From the NCBI RefSeq assembly GCF_014191775.1, contig NZ_JACHXA010000005.1, positions 62,001-126,000 on the forward strand: a DNA stretch of 64,000 bases, in the 5' to 3' direction. The DNA comes from Limibacillus halophilus. Lineage in GTDB: Bacteria; Pseudomonadota; Alphaproteobacteria; Kiloniellales; CECT-8803. The notes below the pieces were generated by a model that searched no databases, had not been told where the DNA came from, and saw nothing but the letters and a program-made list of their open reading frames with translations. Numbering within the stretch: position 1 is the first letter of the stretch; every line of letters starts with the position of its first letter. A program made the position numbers and the translations under genes. This document shows positions 40,071-49,703 of this stretch, one piece after another.

Positions 40071-40146
40071 GTCCCCATCGTCTAGAGGCCTAGGACATCA
40101 GCCTTTCACGCTGAAGACACGGGTTCGATTCCCGTTGGGGACGCCA
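40071..40146 (+). tRNA. tRNA-Glu(TTC), integration target
   Basis: A 76-nt cloverleaf: acceptor GTCCCCA with TGGGGAC, anticodon stem TCAGC/GCTGA, loop CTTTCAC with anticodon TTC, T arm ACGGG-TTCGATT-CCCGT, discriminator G and encoded CCA. The 3' end is the left attachment site of the adjacent element. The antisense strand of most of this gene encodes the end of the recombinase. Confidence 0.97.
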
Positions 40147-41751
40147 TCCGCCCATAGAAGTGGGCACTCCCTCGCAAAAAGAAGGATGGTCGCCATCGTT
40201 GGCGGCCACGGCCTGTGCCAGGATGGCCTTTGAGCCGGTGATGCGCACTTCTTTGCCTTGCACCTCAATCCGATCAATGAGGAGCCGCAGATAGCTCTTG
40301 CGGAGCGGCGAGTTATCGTTCGCGAACTCGCGCCTGAGAGCGCTTGCAAAGGCTTTGACGCGCTTAGGCGTGATCTTCTGGTCAATGGTTTCCTGAGCGC
40401 GGCTCTGGATCGAGAGCTGCCGGATAATCTCCTCACGTTCGCTCTTGCGTGTGCGGATACGGATTGCCAGGGATTCATCGTTGTCCAGATGGCCGCTCTC
40501 GACAGCCTTATAGAGGTTATCCAACGCTTGGTCGTGCGTACGCAGCTCGCGCTGGAGGTGGGCTACTGTCTCGCGCCTTGTATCTTTCTTATCAGAAGAT
40601 CGCTGCGTTAATTCCTTGAGGATCACAGTCAAGCGCGCTGGTTCCAAGATGCGCTCCAGGAGGCTATCGACCACAAGCCGGTCCAGGTCCTTCATGGGAA
40701 TAGGATGGCCTTTGCAGGCGCTGCTGCCGTGGCGAATCTTGTTGGCGCAGTCGTAGTAGCGATAGCGACCGCCTTTGCCGGTACGGATCGTAATCCCTGC
40801 GCCGCAGCGACCGCATTTCAGGAGCCCTGTGAGCAGGGTCGGGCCATTGGTAATGCGCGCCGGGGTCTTGCGCGGGCTGCGCGCTTTGAGGCGGCTCTGG
40901 ACCGTCTCAAAAGTCTCCGGCTCGATGATCACAGGGACGGGAAGGGCGATCCATTCCTCACGTGGTTTTTCCTTCTTGCTGCGACTGTCGAACCTGTTGA
41001 AGAAGTATTCGCCCCTGTAGGCAGGGTTGCGCAGGGTTTCATGCACCTTCTTGATGCTGAAACGCGCACCTTTTCGTGCCTTGAGACCCCTGGCGCCTAG
41101 ATGATTGACGATGGCCTTGATACCGAGCGGACCGCTTTTGCCGTCGCCGTTCCTGTAGAGGTCAAAGATCAGCTTAACGGTCTGCGCCTCGTTAGGGTCG
41201 ATCTCCAGGCGCTTCTTTTCCTTTGCGCCGCGTAGTTCTGCTGTGTAGGTGCGGTAGCCATAGGGTGGCGATGCGCCGTTCCAAAAGCCTTGGCGCGCGT
41301 TCTCCTTCATGGCGCGCAGGGTGTGCTTGGCGTTCTCCGCACTCTGTTGCTCATCGAAGGCTGCGACAACGGTATAGAGAAAATTGCTTGTGGTTTCGTC
41401 GCCATAATCCTGGGTGATAGCCACGAGCCGGATATCGTTCTTTTCCAGCATTCTGCGGTAGATGCAGGAATCAGCAACCGAGCGCGCGAAGCGCGAAAGG
41501 CTATGAACAAGCACCACATCGAAGGGCCGTGGCGTCTGCCGGGCGTCGGCTATCATTTCCTGGAAGGCTGGTCGCCTGTCGTCGGTGCCCGACGCGCCAG
41601 GCTCTATATAGACATTGGTGACCTGATAGCCGTTGGCTTTGGCGTAGGCCTCGCATTGGCTTTGCTGGTCGGGAAGCGAGAGGTCTTGCTCTGCTTGCCT
41701 CGTCGTTGAAACCCTCAGATAGAGAGCCGCCCGCATTCCCGTTCCAGCCAT
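40090..41751 (-). CDS. Serine recombinase (resolvase/integrase), tail encoded in tRNA-Glu
   Basis: A 553-residue large serine recombinase. The catalytic domain has YLRVSTTRQAEQDLSLPDQQ with the nucleophilic serine near residue 15 and HSLSRFARSVADSC. The recombinase domain follows (PPYGYR ... GIKAIVNHLGARGL), then a zinc beta-ribbon (CGRCGAGI ... YDCANKI ... SACKG) and a coiled coil. The final 18 residues (from W536) are encoded by the att core and the antisense strand of tRNA-Glu. In the circular form the same frame would continue into 49692-49601 and end after 33 residues instead. AGGAG precedes the start. Confidence 0.93.
   Translation of the reverse strand: MAGTGMRAALYLRVSTTRQAEQDLSLPDQQSQCEAYAKANGYQVTNVYIEPGASGTDDRRPAFQEMIADARQTPRPFDVVLVHSLSRFARSVADSCIYRRMLEKNDIRLVAITQDYGDETTSNFLYTVVAAFDEQQSAENAKHTLRAMKENARQGFWNGASPPYGYRTYTAELRGAKEKKRLEIDPNEAQTVKLIFDLYRNGDGKSGPLGIKAIVNHLGARGLKARKGARFSIKKVHETLRNPAYRGEYFFNRFDSRSKKEKPREEWIALPVPVIIEPETFETVQSRLKARSPRKTPARITNGPTLLTGLLKCGRCGAGITIRTGKGGRYRYYDCANKIRHGSSACKGHPIPMKDLDRLVVDSLLERILEPARLTVILKELTQRSSDKKDTRRETVAHLQRELRTHDQALDNLYKAVESGHLDNDESLAIRIRTRKSEREEIIRQLSIQSRAQETIDQKITPKRVKAFASALRREFANDNSPLRKSYLRLLIDRIEVQGKEVRITGSKAILAQAVAANDGDHPSFCEGVPTSMGGWRPQRESNPCLQRERLMS
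40137..40147 (+). repeat. Left attachment repeat (tRNA-Glu 3' end)
   Basis: GGGGACGCCAT, comprising the last acceptor-stem bases, discriminator and CCA of tRNA-Glu plus one base. It is identical to 49693-49703. Confidence 0.85.
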
Positions 41752-41760
41752 TATGGTCTC

Positions 41761-42009
41761 CTAATTTTCCAGACTGCTAACCAGCAAACTATCAAAGAAA
41801 CCGGAAAGCATTTCGATTTCCTCGCCTGTCACCGGCAGGACTTCGGGTAGATCGTGACTGACCCGGAGTCCGGTTTCACTATTATACTCGCCGCTATTAT
41901 ACCTGCCCTTGCTCGTGGCTTTTGCGACGGGCCGCCTTGTCTTTTTGGACGAGGCCGCTTTGCTTTGGCCGTCGCTATTATGCTCGGGCGTATGATGGCT
42001 GTCGCTCAA
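41761..42009 (-). CDS. Small element protein of unknown function (82 aa)
   Basis: An 82-residue hydrophilic protein. The first half is rich in S, K, R and N (SKKTRRPVAKATSKGRYNSG), the second half is acidic and ends hydrophobic (EEIEMLSGFFDSLLVSSLEN). No family was recognised. The start is a TTG at 42009, 9 nt after a strong AAGGAGG. An out-of-frame ATG (42013) between that site and the TTG would make an 11-residue peptide. It lies 9 bp upstream of the recombinase in the same operon; a recombination accessory role is conceivable but unsupported. Confidence 0.6.
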   Translation of the reverse strand: MSDSHHTPEHNSDGQSKAASSKKTRRPVAKATSKGRYNSGEYNSETGLRVSHDLPEVLPVTGEEIEMLSGFFDSLLVSSLEN

Positions 42010-42070: not shown

Positions 42071-42244
42071 TTAACGCTCTGCCCGGAAGAGGGCGCGCAA
42101 ATCGGCTATCAGGCCGCGCTCGCCAAACTCCTCCAGGGTGATCTTTCTGAAAGCCTGGAACTGCTCCGGCGGCAGGGAGGCCTGCGCCAGGTCGATGATC
42201 CGGGTCTTGCGATGGTTGATGAGAGAGAGAATCGACTTATACAT
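42071..42244 (-). CDS. 57-aa element protein translationally coupled to Rep
   Basis: A 57-residue reading frame starting MYKSILSLINHRKTRIIDLA and ending ADLRALFRAER. Its ATG overlaps the Rep stop as TAATG, an arrangement typical of reinitiation. Predicted helical and basic. No family was recognised. The open frame on the opposite strand here looks like a shadow. Confidence 0.6.
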   Translation of the reverse strand: MYKSILSLINHRKTRIIDLAQASLPPEQFQAFRKITLEEFGERGLIADLRALFRAER

Positions 42245-43323
42245 TACCAAAGCCCATAGCTGTATTTGGTGATCCGTGCGGCCACGTCTTGCTCCCAGGT
42301 GTAGGGGTCGTGGTGCAATTTGAGGTGGCTCAGAAGCTCTGCGTGGACCTCCTCAATCGTCAGGGGTGCAGTTGCACCCTTGAGAAGGCCAAGAACTGCT
42401 GCGAGGCCTTTTAAGCCGCCGTGGAGGGACTTCGTCTGCTGAAAGAGCCGCCAATTCAGGGGCGCTTGCCGGTCGATCTCCCGGATCAGGCCTGTTTGAT
42501 CGAGGGCGCTAATATCTTGCAGAAGTCCCTGCCAGAGAGGATGGAGCGGCCAGCGAGAGCGGTTGCTGTCGCCCGAAGGCTTGCGCAGGGTCGTGTGACT
42601 GTTCGCCAGCTCACGCAGGATATCGCCTTGATGGATGCCGATCTCGGTCGGATTGGTGATGCCGCCGGGCGCCAGGCGCTCGCGCCGTATTTGAAACTCG
42701 ACCCGCCAGACATTTTCTTTCTGACCCCAAAGCTGATGGAAGAAAACCTTGCCGCTTTCCTGCTCGATCTCCGCCGATTTGTCATAGAGACGCACCACCA
42801 CCTCGCCGCGCCCGAAGGTGAGGGTCTGCACCAGGCCATGCTCCCGGTAGATGGCGTCCTTGCTAGCGCGTGTGACGAAGTGATCCGCCGCGAAATCGAC
42901 CAGCGGCAAGTCATAGTCAAAGCTCCAATCAATACGGGATACGGAGCTGGGCCTGTATAGTGCGCCATTGATGGCTTCCAGCCAGGCGTTCAGGCGCGCC
43001 AGGAGCGCGGCATAGCCATGGCTCCAGAGACCCTTGCTAGAGAATCGCACATGGCAGCTTGGCTGCATCTTCTCAGTCAGACGGATTTCGAAGTCTTCAT
43101 TCACCAGCACGTAACGGTAGGGATGGAGACCATAGGGCATGAGGGCGAAGCTCTCGCCACCAATCGTTATCTTGGCGACCTCATCGCGGCGGCTCTCTTT
43201 GAGGCGCTGCTGCTGATAGGCCAGCTCATCGAAGTCCAGCCAGCTTTCGCCCATGGAGACGAAGTAGGAGACATAGAGACTGTCGATGCCGCTCAGAAGC
43301 AGGCGCGGGCGCTCACTGGTCAT
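42244..43323 (-). CDS. Replication initiation factor (Rep_trans-like)
   Basis: A 359-residue protein. LLLSGIDSLYVSYFV, SVSRIDWSFDYDLP, EVVVRLYDKSAEIEQESGK and NVWRVEFQIRRERL follow the pattern of plasmid/phage rolling-circle initiators of the Rep_trans type (R-x-D, then YDK-x-x-E, then W-R-x-E). It probably nicks an origin to start replication of the excised element. The ATG at 43323 is chosen from the family-like start; 43356 is an alternative. It overlaps the upstream HTH gene by 11 bp. Confidence 0.75.
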   Translation of the reverse strand: MTSERPRLLLSGIDSLYVSYFVSMGESWLDFDELAYQQQRLKESRRDEVAKITIGGESFALMPYGLHPYRYVLVNEDFEIRLTEKMQPSCHVRFSSKGLWSHGYAALLARLNAWLEAINGALYRPSSVSRIDWSFDYDLPLVDFAADHFVTRASKDAIYREHGLVQTLTFGRGEVVVRLYDKSAEIEQESGKVFFHQLWGQKENVWRVEFQIRRERLAPGGITNPTEIGIHQGDILRELANSHTTLRKPSGDSNRSRWPLHPLWQGLLQDISALDQTGLIREIDRQAPLNWRLFQQTKSLHGGLKGLAAVLGLLKGATAPLTIEEVHAELLSHLKLHHDPYTWEQDVAARITKYSYGLW

Positions 43324-43855
43324 GGTCGCCGCGATCCGCAGTGGCTCCAGCGCCATAGAGCTTATCCATGACCTGGGTGAGATTGATCAGGATCGAGCTG
43401 ACAGGCGCGCTTTCCAGGACTGTCTCATCGCCATCGAAGGCTTCTATGCCGTGGAAGAAATGAATGCTGGCCTTTGTGAAGCGTCCGCTATCTGGATCGA
43501 CCTGCCAGGAGACCTGGGCAAAGGCCGGTCCTTCCTGAGTCTCCGAGGCCATCACCAGGTCGTTGTCATCCTCCCAGGCGTCATAGAGAGCCTGGGCGGC
43601 AGGCTTGAGGACTTCCAGGGTCGCGCCGTAGCGCGCCAACTCCAGAAGGATCGCCGCGATCCAGGGTGTCGGCTCGGTCTCATAGAGGCGCGGGATGCCG
43701 GTGCCGGTTTCCTTGCCGCCGACCGTCTCCAGAAGGTCGTTCTGCGTCCAGTGGCGAAGCTGGCGCATGGTCTTGGCGATGTTCGCCGCGCTCAAGGAAG
43801 GGGCGATCAACTGTGCCAGCGCCTTGACGGTGAGATAGTGTCTTTCTGTAACCAT
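43313..43855 (-). CDS. HTH-containing element regulator (hypothetical)
   Basis: A 180-residue protein. The N-terminal YLTVKALAQLIAPSLSAANIAKTMRQLRHWTQNDLLETVGGKETGTGIPRLYE resembles a MerR-like winged helix (variant recognition helix then H-W and a wing with G-x-x-x-G-x-x-R-x-Y). The C-terminal half is not recognised. It is the first gene of the minus-strand operon, directly downstream of a promoter covered by paired inverted repeats, so autoregulation is likely. Confidence 0.65.
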   Translation of the reverse strand: MVTERHYLTVKALAQLIAPSLSAANIAKTMRQLRHWTQNDLLETVGGKETGTGIPRLYETEPTPWIAAILLELARYGATLEVLKPAAQALYDAWEDDNDLVMASETQEGPAFAQVSWQVDPDSGRFTKASIHFFHGIEAFDGDETVLESAPVSSILINLTQVMDKLYGAGATADRGDHDQ

Positions 43856-44209: not shown

Positions 44210-47200
44210 ATGCCCAAGAGGTCGAGGCGTCGTCGCAGCCAGTTTTTAAGCCCATATCGTCTCGACGACACATATTTGCGCAGGCCTGACCGCAAATATG
44301 GCCGCCCAGGCATCCTTTCAGGTATTGATGATCACGGCAATCCCGTGTTGGTCAAAATATGGCCAAAGGCCAAACACACCTCGGACTCAGAACTAAGAGA
44401 GATTTGGCATCACGAAGTCCGCCAGCTCCATCGTTTGGGGGGGTACCCTAACGCTTTTGATGCTATAGCAACGCTCCAACAAACTGGCTTTGACGACGAC
44501 GGATTCTATCTAGTATTGGACCCTGGTCAAAGAAAGCCTCTTTCAAGTGTTCTCGCACATGCTTCTTCTATTCACTGGATAAAGAATCAACGTGTGTCTC
44601 TCAACAGAGCAAAGTTGTGGAGAAACTTACTTCGAATTTCTACAGGATTAGAAACCTTACACACACAAGGTCTCCTTCATAAGAACCTAGACAATTGGGC
44701 AATATTAACCACTGGTGGGGAGGAGCCTGATTTCCAGCTGACTGGATTTGAATGGTCCATACGTTTAATCGGGGCTGCCGCCGGTAGACGCTCCGCACGC
44801 GGACCGGACAGCGCTTATGGTGAGCAAGTATCATTCTTGCAAGACTGGAGAGATTTTGGTCGGCTAGCAGCTGAATTAATGAATCTTTCGGTTTGCCGCC
44901 TTGAAGATCCAAAAATACCGCTATCTGCGGTCTCAGAAAATCTAGTGCTGGACGAAATTCGGCTCCTTAGACACCTCGTTCAGGTGGAACACTTGGACCG
45001 CTTGGATGGCGAAGTGGTTGAAAGACGGATTCAGGAGGTTCTTCGGGTCTTAGAAGCCGATATTGCGCATCAAGACGTCAAGTTTCATCTCGTCGTCTCA
45101 CTGGGAACAAATTCTAGGTTATCTCAAAATATTAGAGAGGCATCAGAAGATGTGATCGAAATTACATCTGACCGAGAGCAAATAGAATTTATTGAAGATG
45201 ATTTGAGCGAAGTTCCTATTTTGTTTGCTATTAGAATCGGAGATGGCTCGAATTTCAGATTAGCCATTCGAGGGACAAAATTAATCTATCGTATAAAGGA
45301 ATATTCGCCTAGATCAGAAGGCGCTGCACTAACTTGGGAGCTCGCATATTGCGATAGTGTGGAGCTTCAAAGCCCCAATCCAAATAAGATCGTCGATTCA
45401 ATTCCCCTGCAATCAAACTCGCTTGAAATTTTACAATTGAGAGAGGCGCACGAACGATTCAGCCGTATGCGTGGAAAAGTCCGTAGTTGGGACACACTGC
45501 GGCGGGTGTTTAAGGTTGATAAAAAGTTCGCGGCTCGTGACAAACAGCATCATAAAGCCTTCGCAATTACCCAGTTCCTTGAAGCGCTGTATGCCGCCAC
45601 AGACGCTTTTCCTGTGAATGTACGAAATGTAACTGGCAATTCTGAAAATGAAATGAACGCAATTATGATTACCGTTCGGGAGGACTTGGGGCGCGAGGCA
45701 CTCGCAAAAGAAATGGGGTTTAAGTCACCATCTATACGCCTAAATGAAGCGCTAATGCAGGACCGACGGAGTGACGAATGGGTTCTTACCGAAGCGCAGC
45801 ATGTTGGCAAAAGTGAATTCACAGATACGTCATGGCGTTTCGACAAGGAATTTGCAGGGTCGAAAAAAGCGCCAGAGTATCGATTTGTTGGAACTGATCT
45901 GTCTCCACCCCTTCATAATCCCATCTTGATTCCAGGCGACTTTGTGGGAAGAGATAAACAGCTCCAGCGTCGGCTTAAAGCGCTCAGAGCACTTGCAGAT
46001 CATGCCGAATTACTATGGATGCTAGTCGATCCTAGGAGGCGGATATTAGACACGCATGATTCCATCGATAATGGCAATGTTCTTGCTAACTTAGACGATT
46101 CAAAAATACAGGCGCTGAACGCTATTGTTGAAACTTTGCCGCTTTTTTTAGTTCAGGGTCCCCCGGGCGTCGGGAAAACTCACATGATAAGAGAGCTTGT
46201 CAAATACATATTCGAAAAGGACCCAACAACGCGATTGCTTCTTAGCGCACAAAGCAATGCGGCCGTAAACCATCTTATGGAAACTCTTGACAAGGCTCTG
46301 GTAGGCGACCGAGACGATATACTGATTGTCAGATGCCGACCCCGCGACAGTCACAAGGACGCCGGTCCATATGAAATTGGAAGCCAAGTTGGCAGTATAA
46401 TTCAACGATTTGCGCAAAGCGAACTGGTCTCTAGTTCACCAGATAACCTGCGTGAATCTGTCATGGCGCTCAAGGCAGAACTGAGCGGCGATGATACCAA
46501 CGATGAGAATTTGAAGGGCCGGGGAGTGGCACCTCGATACTCAAAACAAGCCGTAGAAGGGCTAATAGTGAGAGCCGCAAACGTTGTCTTTGCCACCACC
46601 AACTCTTTTGAGTTAGAGCGTCTAATTGAAGAACGTGGTCAGTTCGACTGGTCGATCATAGAAGAAGCTGGGAAGGCAACGGGTGGAGAGCTTGTTGCCC
46701 CGTTACTTTTGTCATACCGGCGGCTTATGATTGGGGATCATAAACAGCTGTCCCCCTTTGGTTCGGAACAAATCATTCGGCTCCTTGAAGAACCAGATAC
46801 TCTGCGCAATGCAATGATCACTGGGAAGGAATTTGTAAGCCGTACACTGCGTGATCCATCTACTGACGAAATATTGGATGAAATTGATGAAGAGGCGGGA
46901 GAGGATTTTGCAGCACTATGTGCGACCGCAATCGATTGCCTTCTTTTGTTCGAGTCGCTTATCGAAGCCGAGTTTAAATTGTATGCCCGTGGAGCTAAGG
47001 CGCGGCAAATAGCCCATCGACTTAATCAACAACATAGGATGCATCCGGCGATCGCTCGCGTAATCTCTCGGTGTTTCTATGATGGCGATCTGCATACGCA
47101 TCCGTCCGCAAAAAAACGCTTCGAGAAGGAGCCTTGTCCGATCAAGTCTCTTGACCCAAAGCGCTTGCCGGATGCGCCGATCATGATGATTGACATGCCA

Positions 47201-47782
47201 TACGTTCAAAGCACAGTCGGCATGCTCGGCGCAGAAGCCCACCCCCGGTGGCACAACCCTGATGAAATCGAAGCTATACTAAAAGCTGTTATGTTGATTG
47301 GGCGGAACCCAAAGTCCTCAGAAATACCGACCATGGCGATCCTGTCGCCTTATCGTGAGCAAGTCATCCGACTGCAAAATCGAATAGACGAAGATTCTTC
47401 AGTGGGTTCACATTTGAGTCAATTTTGCGCTGCCGTGAGTCCAGGAAACTACTGCGGGACAGTTGATTCATTCCAGGGAAATGAGGCTGATGTTGTCGTT
47501 GTATCATTGGTCCGAAACAATCACCATTCAGGTATCAGAAGCGCTCTCGGATTCTTAAGCGATTCGCGCAGAATGAATGTTCTGCTTAGTAGAGCTCGAT
47601 GGCGTTTAATCTTGGTCTGTTCATCCAAATTCCTTGAGCACGTATTAAGAGCAGAACAGTTCAAAGGTGAGCGGTGTAATACCTATTTCTTATCAGAGAT
47701 GCTCAAAGCAATTGAAGATGAGCGCAAAAATAGTAATGCGGTAGTAGTTCCTTCCGATAGGCTTTTGAGGCTTGCAAGATGA
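44210..47782 (+). CDS. mkoA: Kinase-like/Upf1-like helicase fusion, Mokosh MkoA-like
   Basis: A 1190-residue protein. Residues about 30-230 look like a Ser/Thr kinase lobe pair (VLVKIW with K49, E69), but the catalytic loop reads HKNL (157-160) instead of HRDL, and DFG reads GFE (179-181). The C-terminal half is an SF1 Upf1-like helicase: GPPGVGKT near residue 650, IIEEAGKA near 816, IGDHKQLSPF near 841, QQHRMHP near 940, GTVDSFQGNEAD near 1083, and NVLLSRAR near 1122. Kinase plus COG1112-type helicase followed by a PLD gene is the known Mokosh type I anti-phage layout. The next gene overlaps it by 4 bp (ATGA). Base composition is visibly AT-richer than the host. Confidence 0.82.
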   Translation: MPKRSRRRRSQFLSPYRLDDTYLRRPDRKYGRPGILSGIDDHGNPVLVKIWPKAKHTSDSELREIWHHEVRQLHRLGGYPNAFDAIATLQQTGFDDDGFYLVLDPGQRKPLSSVLAHASSIHWIKNQRVSLNRAKLWRNLLRISTGLETLHTQGLLHKNLDNWAILTTGGEEPDFQLTGFEWSIRLIGAAAGRRSARGPDSAYGEQVSFLQDWRDFGRLAAELMNLSVCRLEDPKIPLSAVSENLVLDEIRLLRHLVQVEHLDRLDGEVVERRIQEVLRVLEADIAHQDVKFHLVVSLGTNSRLSQNIREASEDVIEITSDREQIEFIEDDLSEVPILFAIRIGDGSNFRLAIRGTKLIYRIKEYSPRSEGAALTWELAYCDSVELQSPNPNKIVDSIPLQSNSLEILQLREAHERFSRMRGKVRSWDTLRRVFKVDKKFAARDKQHHKAFAITQFLEALYAATDAFPVNVRNVTGNSENEMNAIMITVREDLGREALAKEMGFKSPSIRLNEALMQDRRSDEWVLTEAQHVGKSEFTDTSWRFDKEFAGSKKAPEYRFVGTDLSPPLHNPILIPGDFVGRDKQLQRRLKALRALADHAELLWMLVDPRRRILDTHDSIDNGNVLANLDDSKIQALNAIVETLPLFLVQGPPGVGKTHMIRELVKYIFEKDPTTRLLLSAQSNAAVNHLMETLDKALVGDRDDILIVRCRPRDSHKDAGPYEIGSQVGSIIQRFAQSELVSSSPDNLRESVMALKAELSGDDTNDENLKGRGVAPRYSKQAVEGLIVRAANVVFATTNSFELERLIEERGQFDWSIIEEAGKATGGELVAPLLLSYRRLMIGDHKQLSPFGSEQIIRLLEEPDTLRNAMITGKEFVSRTLRDPSTDEILDEIDEEAGEDFAALCATAIDCLLLFESLIEAEFKLYARGAKARQIAHRLNQQHRMHPAIARVISRCFYDGDLHTHPSAKKRFEKEPCPIKSLDPKRLPDAPIMMIDMPYVQSTVGMLGAEAHPRWHNPDEIEAILKAVMLIGRNPKSSEIPTMAILSPYREQVIRLQNRIDEDSSVGSHLSQFCAAVSPGNYCGTVDSFQGNEADVVVVSLVRNNHHSGIRSALGFLSDSRRMNVLLSRARWRLILVCSSKFLEHVLRAEQFKGERCNTYFLSEMLKAIEDERKNSNAVVVPSDRLLRLAR

Positions 47783-49533
47783 CAATCGTCCAGGTCGCGG
47801 TTCCAGTTCTACAAGGTCGCCGCAACTTTCATTTTGACAAGGGCCGCCCTTGGAGCATTGTTGAACATGTTTTGCTCGCCGGGCTTATCGATGAGCCATT
47901 GACTGCTGCGGAGCTTGCTGAACGTGGCAATATTCCAAAGCGCGTCGCAATTGAGGCTTTGATACGTTTAATGCGTGCTGGTTGGGTGGAGATGTCGCAA
48001 AAAAGCGCTGCTGTTCGTTTTGTTGTCACTCACCGAGGAGCCGCCGCCGCTACATATAATGAACTACCGAATGCGTCTAGACGATTGAGTCGGAGGATGA
48101 ACTTTGTCATAGACCAAGTTACCGGCACAGTATACCGCAGTCGCGAGCTACCTTTCGTTCATGAACATGTCTTGGACGAACGAGCCAAGCGCGAAAGAAT
48201 AGTGAAGCTTGAGCGAGCTGAGAGAGAATATTTAGACGAGGTAAAACCACTCGTTGAAGCATTATTTTTAGACGACGAAAAATTCATTTCTGTAGATCCG
48301 CATGGCGACCGATTATCAAAGCGATGGTCTCTTGTTACTGTCCGTGATGGCGAACCTGATGGACTCACAACTCGCGCTCCTGCGTCACTAATAGAGATCA
48401 TAAAATGTGCAGCAAAGGCCGCGCCCAATCTTCCAGCAAAAGGAGATTTCGCGTTCTTTGAGCCACCTCAAATTGCGGTTCCTTCTGCAAGTTTATTGCC
48501 AGGGGAGCACTTCATCGATTTTTCGGCTCGAGATATTATTCTTGGAGGTTCAGATCACCGTGCGGTGTTTGAAGCAGCCGTGAAAAAAGCGCGACACCGA
48601 ATACTTATTCATTCGACCTTTATCTCGGAGAACCGTTTCAACGAACTGCTGCATCTTCTAAAGGAGGCTGTTAACCGAGGGGTCAAAGTTGACATTCTTT
48701 GGGGACAGGAGGCGCAATCAGAAAGCAATAGCACCACGCGTCATGCAGTTGGCCTAATCAGGCGTATGTTGCGCGAGGAAGGTATCGAAATGCTGCGCGT
48801 ACATCCGTTCTCTACAGGGTCACACTCTAAGGTTCTGATTGCCGACGAAGGCTCGACAGATAAATTCTTTAGCATTGTCGGCTCCTGCAACTGGCTTTCT
48901 ACCCAGTTTCAATCCTTTGAGGCTTCAGTTCGACTGAAGGATCCAGCCATTGTTGCTGATGTTGTTTACCAAATGGCCGAGTTGTCGAAAGGCTCGCGCG
49001 GCATATGGACTGACTTCACAAATGAACTTGCTGCGCTTGCTGCTCATCTTAGAGCTAAACCCATAAAATCAAATGGCGGAGCTCTTGCCCAAATTGTCAT
49101 AGGTTCACGCCATGCTGATCTCGTTAGGCAAGCACGCGATGTTTGCGAAAGGCGAATGTTTGTTGTCAGCCACCGTTTCGGCGTAGCTGGCGAGTCAGCA
49201 ATATTAGCCCCGGCACTAGCTGCTGCAAAAGCGAAAGGTGTTGATGTTAATGTGTTTTATTGCACCACGAGCGGCCTCTTAGGTGGCGATGCTGCAGCAG
49301 ATATGACAATAGATGTGCGCGAGATGGGGGTAGAGATCAGACCTGTTCGAAAACCACGCATTCATGCCAAGATATTAGCATGGGATGATGATGCAGTAGT
49401 AATCACTAGCCAGAATTGGCTATCTGCAGATCCTCCCGATACCAAGCCCCGACAAGAGATTGGTGTTTTTATTAAGGCGCGCGGTTTGGCCAAAAACGTT
49501 ATTGAGCGGTTTGCGGCGGCTCACTTGGAATAA
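47779..49533 (+). CDS. mkoB: Dual-HKD phospholipase D-family protein, Mokosh MkoB-like
   Basis: A 584-residue protein. An N-terminal winged-helix-like segment (LTAAELAERGNIPKRVAIEALIRLMRAGWVEM, about 38-70) is followed by an unassigned middle part. Two PLD motifs are complete: GSHSKVLIAD near residue 350 with GSCNWLS after it, and RIHAKILAWDD near 528 with TSQNWLS after it. PLD-family proteins with this spacing are usually nucleases. It starts inside the helicase stop codon, so the two are probably made together. Paired with the kinase-helicase it fits Mokosh type I. Confidence 0.82.
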   Translation: MTIVQVAVPVLQGRRNFHFDKGRPWSIVEHVLLAGLIDEPLTAAELAERGNIPKRVAIEALIRLMRAGWVEMSQKSAAVRFVVTHRGAAAATYNELPNASRRLSRRMNFVIDQVTGTVYRSRELPFVHEHVLDERAKRERIVKLERAEREYLDEVKPLVEALFLDDEKFISVDPHGDRLSKRWSLVTVRDGEPDGLTTRAPASLIEIIKCAAKAAPNLPAKGDFAFFEPPQIAVPSASLLPGEHFIDFSARDIILGGSDHRAVFEAAVKKARHRILIHSTFISENRFNELLHLLKEAVNRGVKVDILWGQEAQSESNSTTRHAVGLIRRMLREEGIEMLRVHPFSTGSHSKVLIADEGSTDKFFSIVGSCNWLSTQFQSFEASVRLKDPAIVADVVYQMAELSKGSRGIWTDFTNELAALAAHLRAKPIKSNGGALAQIVIGSRHADLVRQARDVCERRMFVVSHRFGVAGESAILAPALAAAKAKGVDVNVFYCTTSGLLGGDAAADMTIDVREMGVEIRPVRKPRIHAKILAWDDDAVVITSQNWLSADPPDTKPRQEIGVFIKARGLAKNVIERFAAAHLE

Positions 49534-49600: not shown

Positions 49601-49692
49601 TCAGCCACCATTTTTAAATTGAATACCTCGCTTGACTTGTATCCTACCAGGTAGAGCCAGTTTTACCTCCCAGTGCCCACTTTCATCCCCTA
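49601..49692 (-). other. Alternative C-terminal coding segment for the recombinase (circular form)
   Basis: Read on the minus strand after the att core in the recombinase frame, this segment gives L-G-D-E-S-G-H-W-E-V-K and continues as a basic tail to a TGA at 49603-49601. Joined through the att core it would replace the tRNA-encoded tail and make a 568-residue recombinase. It has no start codon of its own that makes biological sense. Confidence 0.7.
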
Positions 49693-49703
49693 GGGGACGC
49701 CAT
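49693..49703 (+). repeat. Right attachment repeat
   Basis: GGGGACGCCAT, identical to the 3' end of tRNA-Glu at 40137-40147. It lies 25 bp from the stop codon of the next host gene. Confidence 0.85.

Follow-up and report, generated by a model that had tools for sequence, protein, structure and literature searches.

A large serine recombinase gene in the 64,000-nucleotide stretch of Limibacillus halophilus DNA analyzed here (the window) appears to span the attP site of its own mobile element, such that integration would swap a native C-terminal tail for one read antisense from a tRNA gene. We put the probability of this account at roughly 0.7; it draws on the reading frame, the att core, the attP arms, the phase shared by relatives, the pattern of the alternative tail, and the protein-level constraint in one subgroup, all of which can be read directly in the DNA.

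Results

Two C termini from one recombinase frame

The recombinase of the integrated form (40090..41751, minus strand; 553 aa) has Pfam matches to the Resolvase N-terminal (PF00239, 5.1e-33), Recombinase (PF07508, 4.2e-19), and zinc-ribbon (PF13408, Zn_ribbon_recom, 2.2e-17) domains, in the order typical of a large serine recombinase, and residue S15, which we take to be the catalytic serine, is invariant in 26 of 26 aligned recombinases. The frame leaves the element through an 11-bp att core, GGGGACGCCAT (40137..40147), at the 3′ end of tRNA-Glu(TTC), and stops at 40090 within the tRNA gene, giving the C terminus GVPTSMGG-WRPQRESNPCLQRERLMS. As the original prediction had it, the tRNA-encoded tail (40090..40146, minus strand; W536–S553 and the stop) thus adds 18 residues from W536, and our own codon-by-codon reading confirms this. 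When the inner ends of the element are joined in silico through GGGGACGCCAT, the same frame instead reads GVPTSMGG-WRPLGDESGHWEVKLALPGRIQVKRGIQFKNGG and reaches a TGA at 49601; the resulting circular form has 568 aa, with 33 residues from W536. The continuity of this frame through the core, its clean TGA, and the difference between 553 and 568 residues had all been predicted, and all three hold codon by codon in silico. The circular-form tail (W-R-P-L-G-D-E-S-G-H-W-E-V-K-L-A-L and onward; 33 codons plus TGA; 49601..49702, minus strand), also delineated by the family comparison below, falls in the recombinase frame only once the element ends are joined. Of the coordinates initially assigned, those of the tail beyond the core (49692–49601) stand, while the second core copy was one base off and in fact occupies 49693–49703, offset by 9556 from the first.

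The three Pfam domains end by residue 364, and the exchange affects only residues after the core at W536. An AlphaFold2 model of the integrated form, computed from a shallow alignment of 29 rows (the window and IMG/VR sequences only), has a folded body up to about residue 517, and residues 521–553 have pLDDT values below 50.

The att site and its element

Symmetric arms around the core are the expected layout of a serine-integrase attP, and the assembled attP of the window element is short and has such arms on both sides of a small crossover, in the form of an 11-bp inverted repeat, AGTGCCCACTT (49672..49682) and AAGTGGGCACT (40158..40168), with each arm exactly 10 bases from the core. A repeat this long at any position between the two 60-bp inner ends was found in 3 of 5000 shuffles, and the symmetry therefore supports a junction inside the core. 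One arm is consequently coding within the G-V-P-T-S codons at the 3′ end of the recombinase gene, and the other within the alternative tail.

The target gene, tRNA-Glu(TTC) (40071..40146, plus strand; ARAGORN), is complete after integration, and the element has an intact tRNA at one end and a 3′ tRNA fragment at the other, as tRNA-gene islands do. In G001, a genome of the same family, the left flank matches up to tRNA-Glu(TTC), directly after which other sequence follows; the right flank has no match and the locus ends about 190 bp further on, such that attB is only half confirmed. Elsewhere in the window's own genome, 17 nt of tRNA-Glu(CTC) (TGGCGTCCCCTAGGGGA, G000:C2:440338-440354) recur in the far half of the window attP (49686–49702), and the element nonetheless occupies tRNA-Glu(TTC), with only the 11-bp core in common. 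Another match in the same genome, to a distant serine recombinase (30% identical; G000:C2:139217-140308), has a tRNA gene roughly 1 kb away (C2:137979-138067).

Upstream of the recombinase lies a gene for a Rep_trans-like replication initiator of the rolling-circle type (42244..43356, minus strand; Pfam E = 1.4e-5, 25.2 bits, which is below the gathering score of 29.6). Rep relatives are present in 12 of the 72 stretches examined, the window included, and this neighbor hints that the circle could be a replicating stage. The cargo (44210–49533) is a Mokosh-type anti-phage system, with an MkoA-like helicase (44210..47782, plus strand; PADLOC E = 3.4e-263) and an MkoB-like PLD nuclease (47779..49533, plus strand; PADLOC E = 2.4e-99). 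A scan for promoters and terminators at the far end of the element found none.

Most relatives read through the att site in the same phase

Relatives of the recombinase, mostly 40–49% identical, were drawn from genomes, plasmids, one gut phage record, and IMG/VR; a scan of genome contigs gave distant recombinase relatives only (28–34%). In these relatives, the frame passes through the corresponding site and keeps its phase, with the Trp codon TGG being the complement of the tRNA CCA. A uniform pass over 79 loci yielded 26 in which the Trp codon is the antisense reading of the CCA of a tRNA called by ARAGORN, and in these the offset is 0 in 26 of 26 (an offset of up to ±2 was allowed). Their targets are tRNA-Glu (TTC, CTC), tRNA-Arg (CCG, TCT, ACG, CCT), tRNA-Ser (TGA, CGA, GCT), tRNA-Asn (GTT), and tRNA-Thr (CGT). 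In another 28 loci, no tRNA was called but the tail resembles a T-arm under a loose motif (W-x4-[DE]-S-N or close to it), and in 9 the Trp core is followed by another tail; 8 are lost before the core (several being disrupted copies), 7 are cut by contig ends, and 1 is a duplicate. Setting aside the cut loci and the duplicate leaves 71 evaluable loci, of which 62 are open through the TGG core and 9 are not; L010, initially among the 9 with another tail, is counted here as lost (hence 62 rather than 63), its match reaching only to query residue 402 of 534.

Four further loci have an antisense tRNA near the recombinase end: L030 is in phase, with the gene disrupted upstream, and L049, L064, and L067 are out of phase, giving 27 in-phase loci among the 30 with a called tRNA at that end. 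L064 (39% identical) and L067 (32–33%) stop about 54 and 8 bases short of the tRNA, and these sister recombinases may possibly represent a state before the gene grew across attP. In frame 0, the 22 codons preceding TGG are open in all 29 members compared, a figure conditioned on membership; in the other two frames they are open in 11 and 17 members. These in-phase tRNA and open-frame counts led us to reject a purely local accident.

Counted after W-R, the integrated tails are between 2 and more than 60 residues long and vary with the target; the T-arms of tRNAs are conserved, which is why a tRNA-derived tail recurs, while its length and sequence follow the target. Three recombinases that are 96–97% identical to one another (L009, L027, and L028) share the end SSVLKWR and then diverge completely, into unrelated tails of 32, 11, and 3 residues, which fits a target site that would supply the protein's last residues. 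No tRNA is called at the junction in any of the three, and other targets seem to be used as well. One of them lies behind a trb operon on an Enterobacter IncR plasmid, one near resistance genes on a Brevundimonas plasmid, and one in a genome; the Enterobacter copy has no near match among 20,395 E. coli records.

A similar tail waits at the far end of related elements

The far ends of relatives encode a tail similar to that of the window element and in the same frame, W-R-x3-D-E-x-E-[NH]-[WY]-x-phi-x-[IV]-x-L. Far ends were located first by direct repeat and arm symmetry, and some by the tail motif or a DNA pattern. Six first-ranked far ends read WRPLGDESGHWEVKLAL (window), WRAGEDENENWLLTVHL (G736), and WRAKGNKDENLWVIVEK (G537), each running on, and WRAVEHKNANWKMICSL (G187), WLAKTDKSGHWIMQVRI (G526), and WRTGEDEKENWEVIVPF (G796), each followed by a stop. 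Hydrophobic residues fill 17 of the 18 places at tail positions 13, 15, and 17 of these six, whose ends had been noticed by their tails.

We also ranked the candidate far ends of 29 elements automatically by direct repeat and arm symmetry, ignoring the tail. Eleven elements score at least 19 (the six above and G516, G031a, G756, G778, and G644), and positions 13, 15, and 17, a post hoc choice made after the tails had been seen, are hydrophobic in 21 of 33 cases, a value matched by 5 of 100000 random draws of TGG sites. At a score of at least 20 the count is 17 of 27 (27 of 100000 draws), and at 18 or more it is 23 of 48 (219 of 100000). Only 6 of the 11 top-scoring far ends carry the tail: it ranks second among the candidates in G516 and G031a, and it is absent from the top-scoring far ends of G778 (score 24), G756, and G644.

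Over 15 tails, including motif- and pattern-found ones, D6 is present in 13, [NH]10 in 15, and [WY]11 in 14, with the proviso that positions 10, 11, 15, and 17 were part of the search motif for several; it was by motif or pattern that the tails of G603 (two), G260, L115, L143/L146, L144, and L148 came to light, and their residues at motif positions prove nothing. A stop follows after exactly 17 codons in 9 of the 15, unlike the window's own circular tail of 33 residues. The loose tail motif, run over 1.48 Mb, matches 16 times on the int strand and 4 times on the control strand; among the int-strand matches, three seem to be chance hits and one duplicates another. Recombinase identity and tail similarity are uncorrelated among 9 elements (Mantel r = −0.05).

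Some loci hold more than one such end. In the oriented stretch of G603, two far-end tails (5600 and 15382) lie 9.8 kb apart upstream of one recombinase, which suggests stacked elements. In that of G736 (L057 with L076–L078), two extra upstream cores (48222 and 52807) each join a short int-like 3′ arm in frame to a far-end tail, making attP-type junctions in a chromosome; no int body was found with them, and they look like accretion or att-only satellites.

Codon-level constraint on the circular tail

Codons 1–10 overlap the attP half-site, and conservation there may therefore be at the DNA level. In an AIAL-type subgroup of six tails (the two of G603, G516, G031a, L115, and L146; the DNA-pattern-found L144 and L148 were left out), pN/pS over codons 1–17 is 0.39, compared with 1.02 and 1.58 in the other frames. 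Over codons 11–17, frame 0 gives 0.26 and the other frames 1.39 and 1.14; over the motif-free codons 12, 13, 14, and 16, the corresponding values are 0.37, 4.11, and 1.03. Third positions are more variable in this subgroup (Fisher p = 0.011 and 0.021), and G603a, G516, and G031a alone give a pN/pS of 0.23 over codons 11–17. The six top-ranked, more divergent tails give 0.65 over the same codons (0.82 and 1.29 in the other frames), and the third-position test over all 15 tails is not significant (p = 0.46; p = 0.67 for codons 11–17). Either saturation or weak constraint would produce this weaker signal. Taken together, the codon patterns suggest protein-level constraint on the circular tail that is clear in one subgroup and weak elsewhere, and it is the circular-form tail, more than the tRNA-encoded one, that seems to behave like a part of the protein.

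The original prediction had named, as the finding that would count against it, relatives that conserve the tRNA-encoded tail and not the alternative one; in the comparison carried out here, the relatives do not show this pattern, and the constraint falls on the circular tail. Its central proposal, of different encoded C termini in the integrated and circular forms, has good support and extends from a single element to the family.

A contiguous native-tailed gene or circular junction was sought directly, and none was found in 40 IMG/VR loci, among 60 listed of 340 matching plasmid records, or in 398 genomes (19 with a match). Two candidates for a native-tailed gene were rejected: H62 is a tRNA-Ser(GCT) insertion, and H67 is a distant recombinase with an unconvincing tail match.

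Discussion

Together, these comparisons suggest that the circular form probably encodes the native C terminus and that integration swaps it. In the mechanism that would account for the data most simply, the recombinase gene would span its own attP, and the excised circle, perhaps replicated by the neighboring Rep, would encode the native protein, with a strand-like tail (D-E-x-E-[NH]-[WY]-x-phi-x-[IV]-x-L) beyond the crossover. Recombination of attP with the 3′ end of a tRNA gene would then cut the native tail off the gene, stranding it at the element's far end, and would fuse the recombinase to an antisense tRNA frame encoding an unconserved, probably unstructured tail, leaving the catalytic, DNA-binding, and coiled-coil parts untouched. 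Because the tail is exchanged at integration, the two states would make different recombinases. We further suppose that each of the two forms is expressed, that the native tail either promotes integration or serves some other need of the circle, and that the tail-swapped form excises with a directionality factor, the loss of the tail being a built-in record of state. One candidate for such a factor is the 82-aa ORF at 41761–42009.

One alternative is that the overlap is incidental: attP sits at the element's edge beside int, descent has left no stop before attP, and both tails are inert baggage. Such a history would accommodate integrated tails of such different lengths that follow the target, the predicted lack of structure in the tail region, the unrelated tails of three nearly identical recombinases, and the null Mantel test. 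It is harder to reconcile with circular tails that share a hydrophobic pattern and a stop position, with a frame kept open through a variable linker in 62 of 71 loci, and with protein-level constraint beyond the att arm in one subgroup, and we regard it as unlikely, if still deserving of some weight. That same constraint bears on the idea that the tail is conserved merely as attP DNA, through sites bound by the recombinase and zinc-ribbon domains. The inverted repeat and a tRNA-like GGAT motif do coincide with the arm and roughly codons 6–11, and constraint on the protein is weak outside one subgroup; codons 12–17, however, lie beyond the arm, and within the subgroup synonymous sites vary while residues are kept, which makes a purely DNA-level reading improbable.

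A function of another kind would be that of a degradation signal, whereby the far-end tail makes circle-derived Int short-lived and integration stabilizes Int by removing the tag. In the mycobacteriophages with integration-dependent immunity, integration removes a degradation tag and thereby stabilizes the protein. Many of the tails have a hydrophobic C terminus (AIAL, CSL, VRI, VPF, VAL), and the G516 tail DDNYAYAIAL seems to resemble the tmRNA tag of its host, ANDNYAPVAQAA (ARAGORN gave a tag for 5 of the 8 tmRNA loci scanned and none for the window's own genome). Yet no tail ends in the AA of tmRNA tags, and other endings differ altogether (QNED and QNDA in G603, KLNG in G537, FKNGG in the window), so we consider this role rather unlikely, though still a live alternative.

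Going back to a native tail that is exchanged on integration, any effect of the tail on reaction direction, activity, or stability would be a further step. In its broadest form, the proposal is of a tRNA-targeting family of large serine recombinases with a detachable C-terminal module laid across attP, in which the protein would report the circular or integrated state and bias the reaction, being integration-competent with the native tail and altered in direction, stability, or specificity without it; we advance this tentatively, at slightly worse than even odds. The enzyme's form may thus tell a free element from an inserted one. For serine integrases, which have many uses in DNA editing, the way in which direction is kept is under active study, and a natural family that rewrites the C terminus of its own enzyme by recombination would provide a direct and testable handle on it. 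If the account is correct, sequence records of integrated elements contain the tail-swapped rather than the native enzyme.

Comparison with known systems

Like Islander-type islands in tRNA genes, the window element keeps the tRNA whole and has a displaced 3′ fragment at its far end; unlike the tyrosine integrases of such islands, its enzyme is a serine recombinase by Pfam. According to the 2014 Islander paper, serine integrases were not known to use tRNA genes, and a 2019 Paracoccus paper predicts one serine-recombinase phage in tRNA-Met (PMC6536676); in the present family, several tRNA isotypes serve as serine recombinase targets. Among the matches listed in the open-licence literature, we found no serine recombinase whose own gene contains attP, nor does one appear in the portions available of PMC12884075, PMC9203015, and PMC11476347.

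The loss of a C-terminal extension from an element-encoded regulator on integration recalls the mycobacteriophages BPs and Brujita, with the difference that attP lies in the repressor gene there and in the recombinase gene here. Both phages, which have integration-dependent immunity, use a tyrosine integrase. The Int of Myxococcus phage Mx8 is likewise a tyrosine recombinase. Its attP lies within the int coding sequence, and integration creates a new int 3′ end and a changed specificity, according to two reports (PMC6070905, PMC4383910). The window int also holds attP inside the gene and acquires a new 3′ end in frame on integration, in silico and for the window and its family alike. The differences are that Mx8 is a single phage with a tyrosine recombinase, whereas the three Pfam matches here are to serine-recombinase domains, in a family found on small elements and ICE-like regions, and that the tail here is read antisense from tRNA genes and accompanied by a far-end tail common to the family. 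The "suicidal" integrases of archaeal SSV-type viruses also have attP inside the integrase gene, which is altered on integration (PMC8371274), and a 2021 review describes self-disrupting recombinases as found only in archaea. The SSV-type enzymes are tyrosine recombinases from which integration splits off the part bearing the catalytic domain, whereas the window recombinase keeps its domains, the catalytic one included, in one piece and exchanges no more than a short C-terminal tail. The principle of an attP inside an integrase gene is thus already established by Mx8 and the archaeal suicidal integrases; to it, the present family would add a serine recombinase whose tail is exchanged for one read from a tRNA gene.
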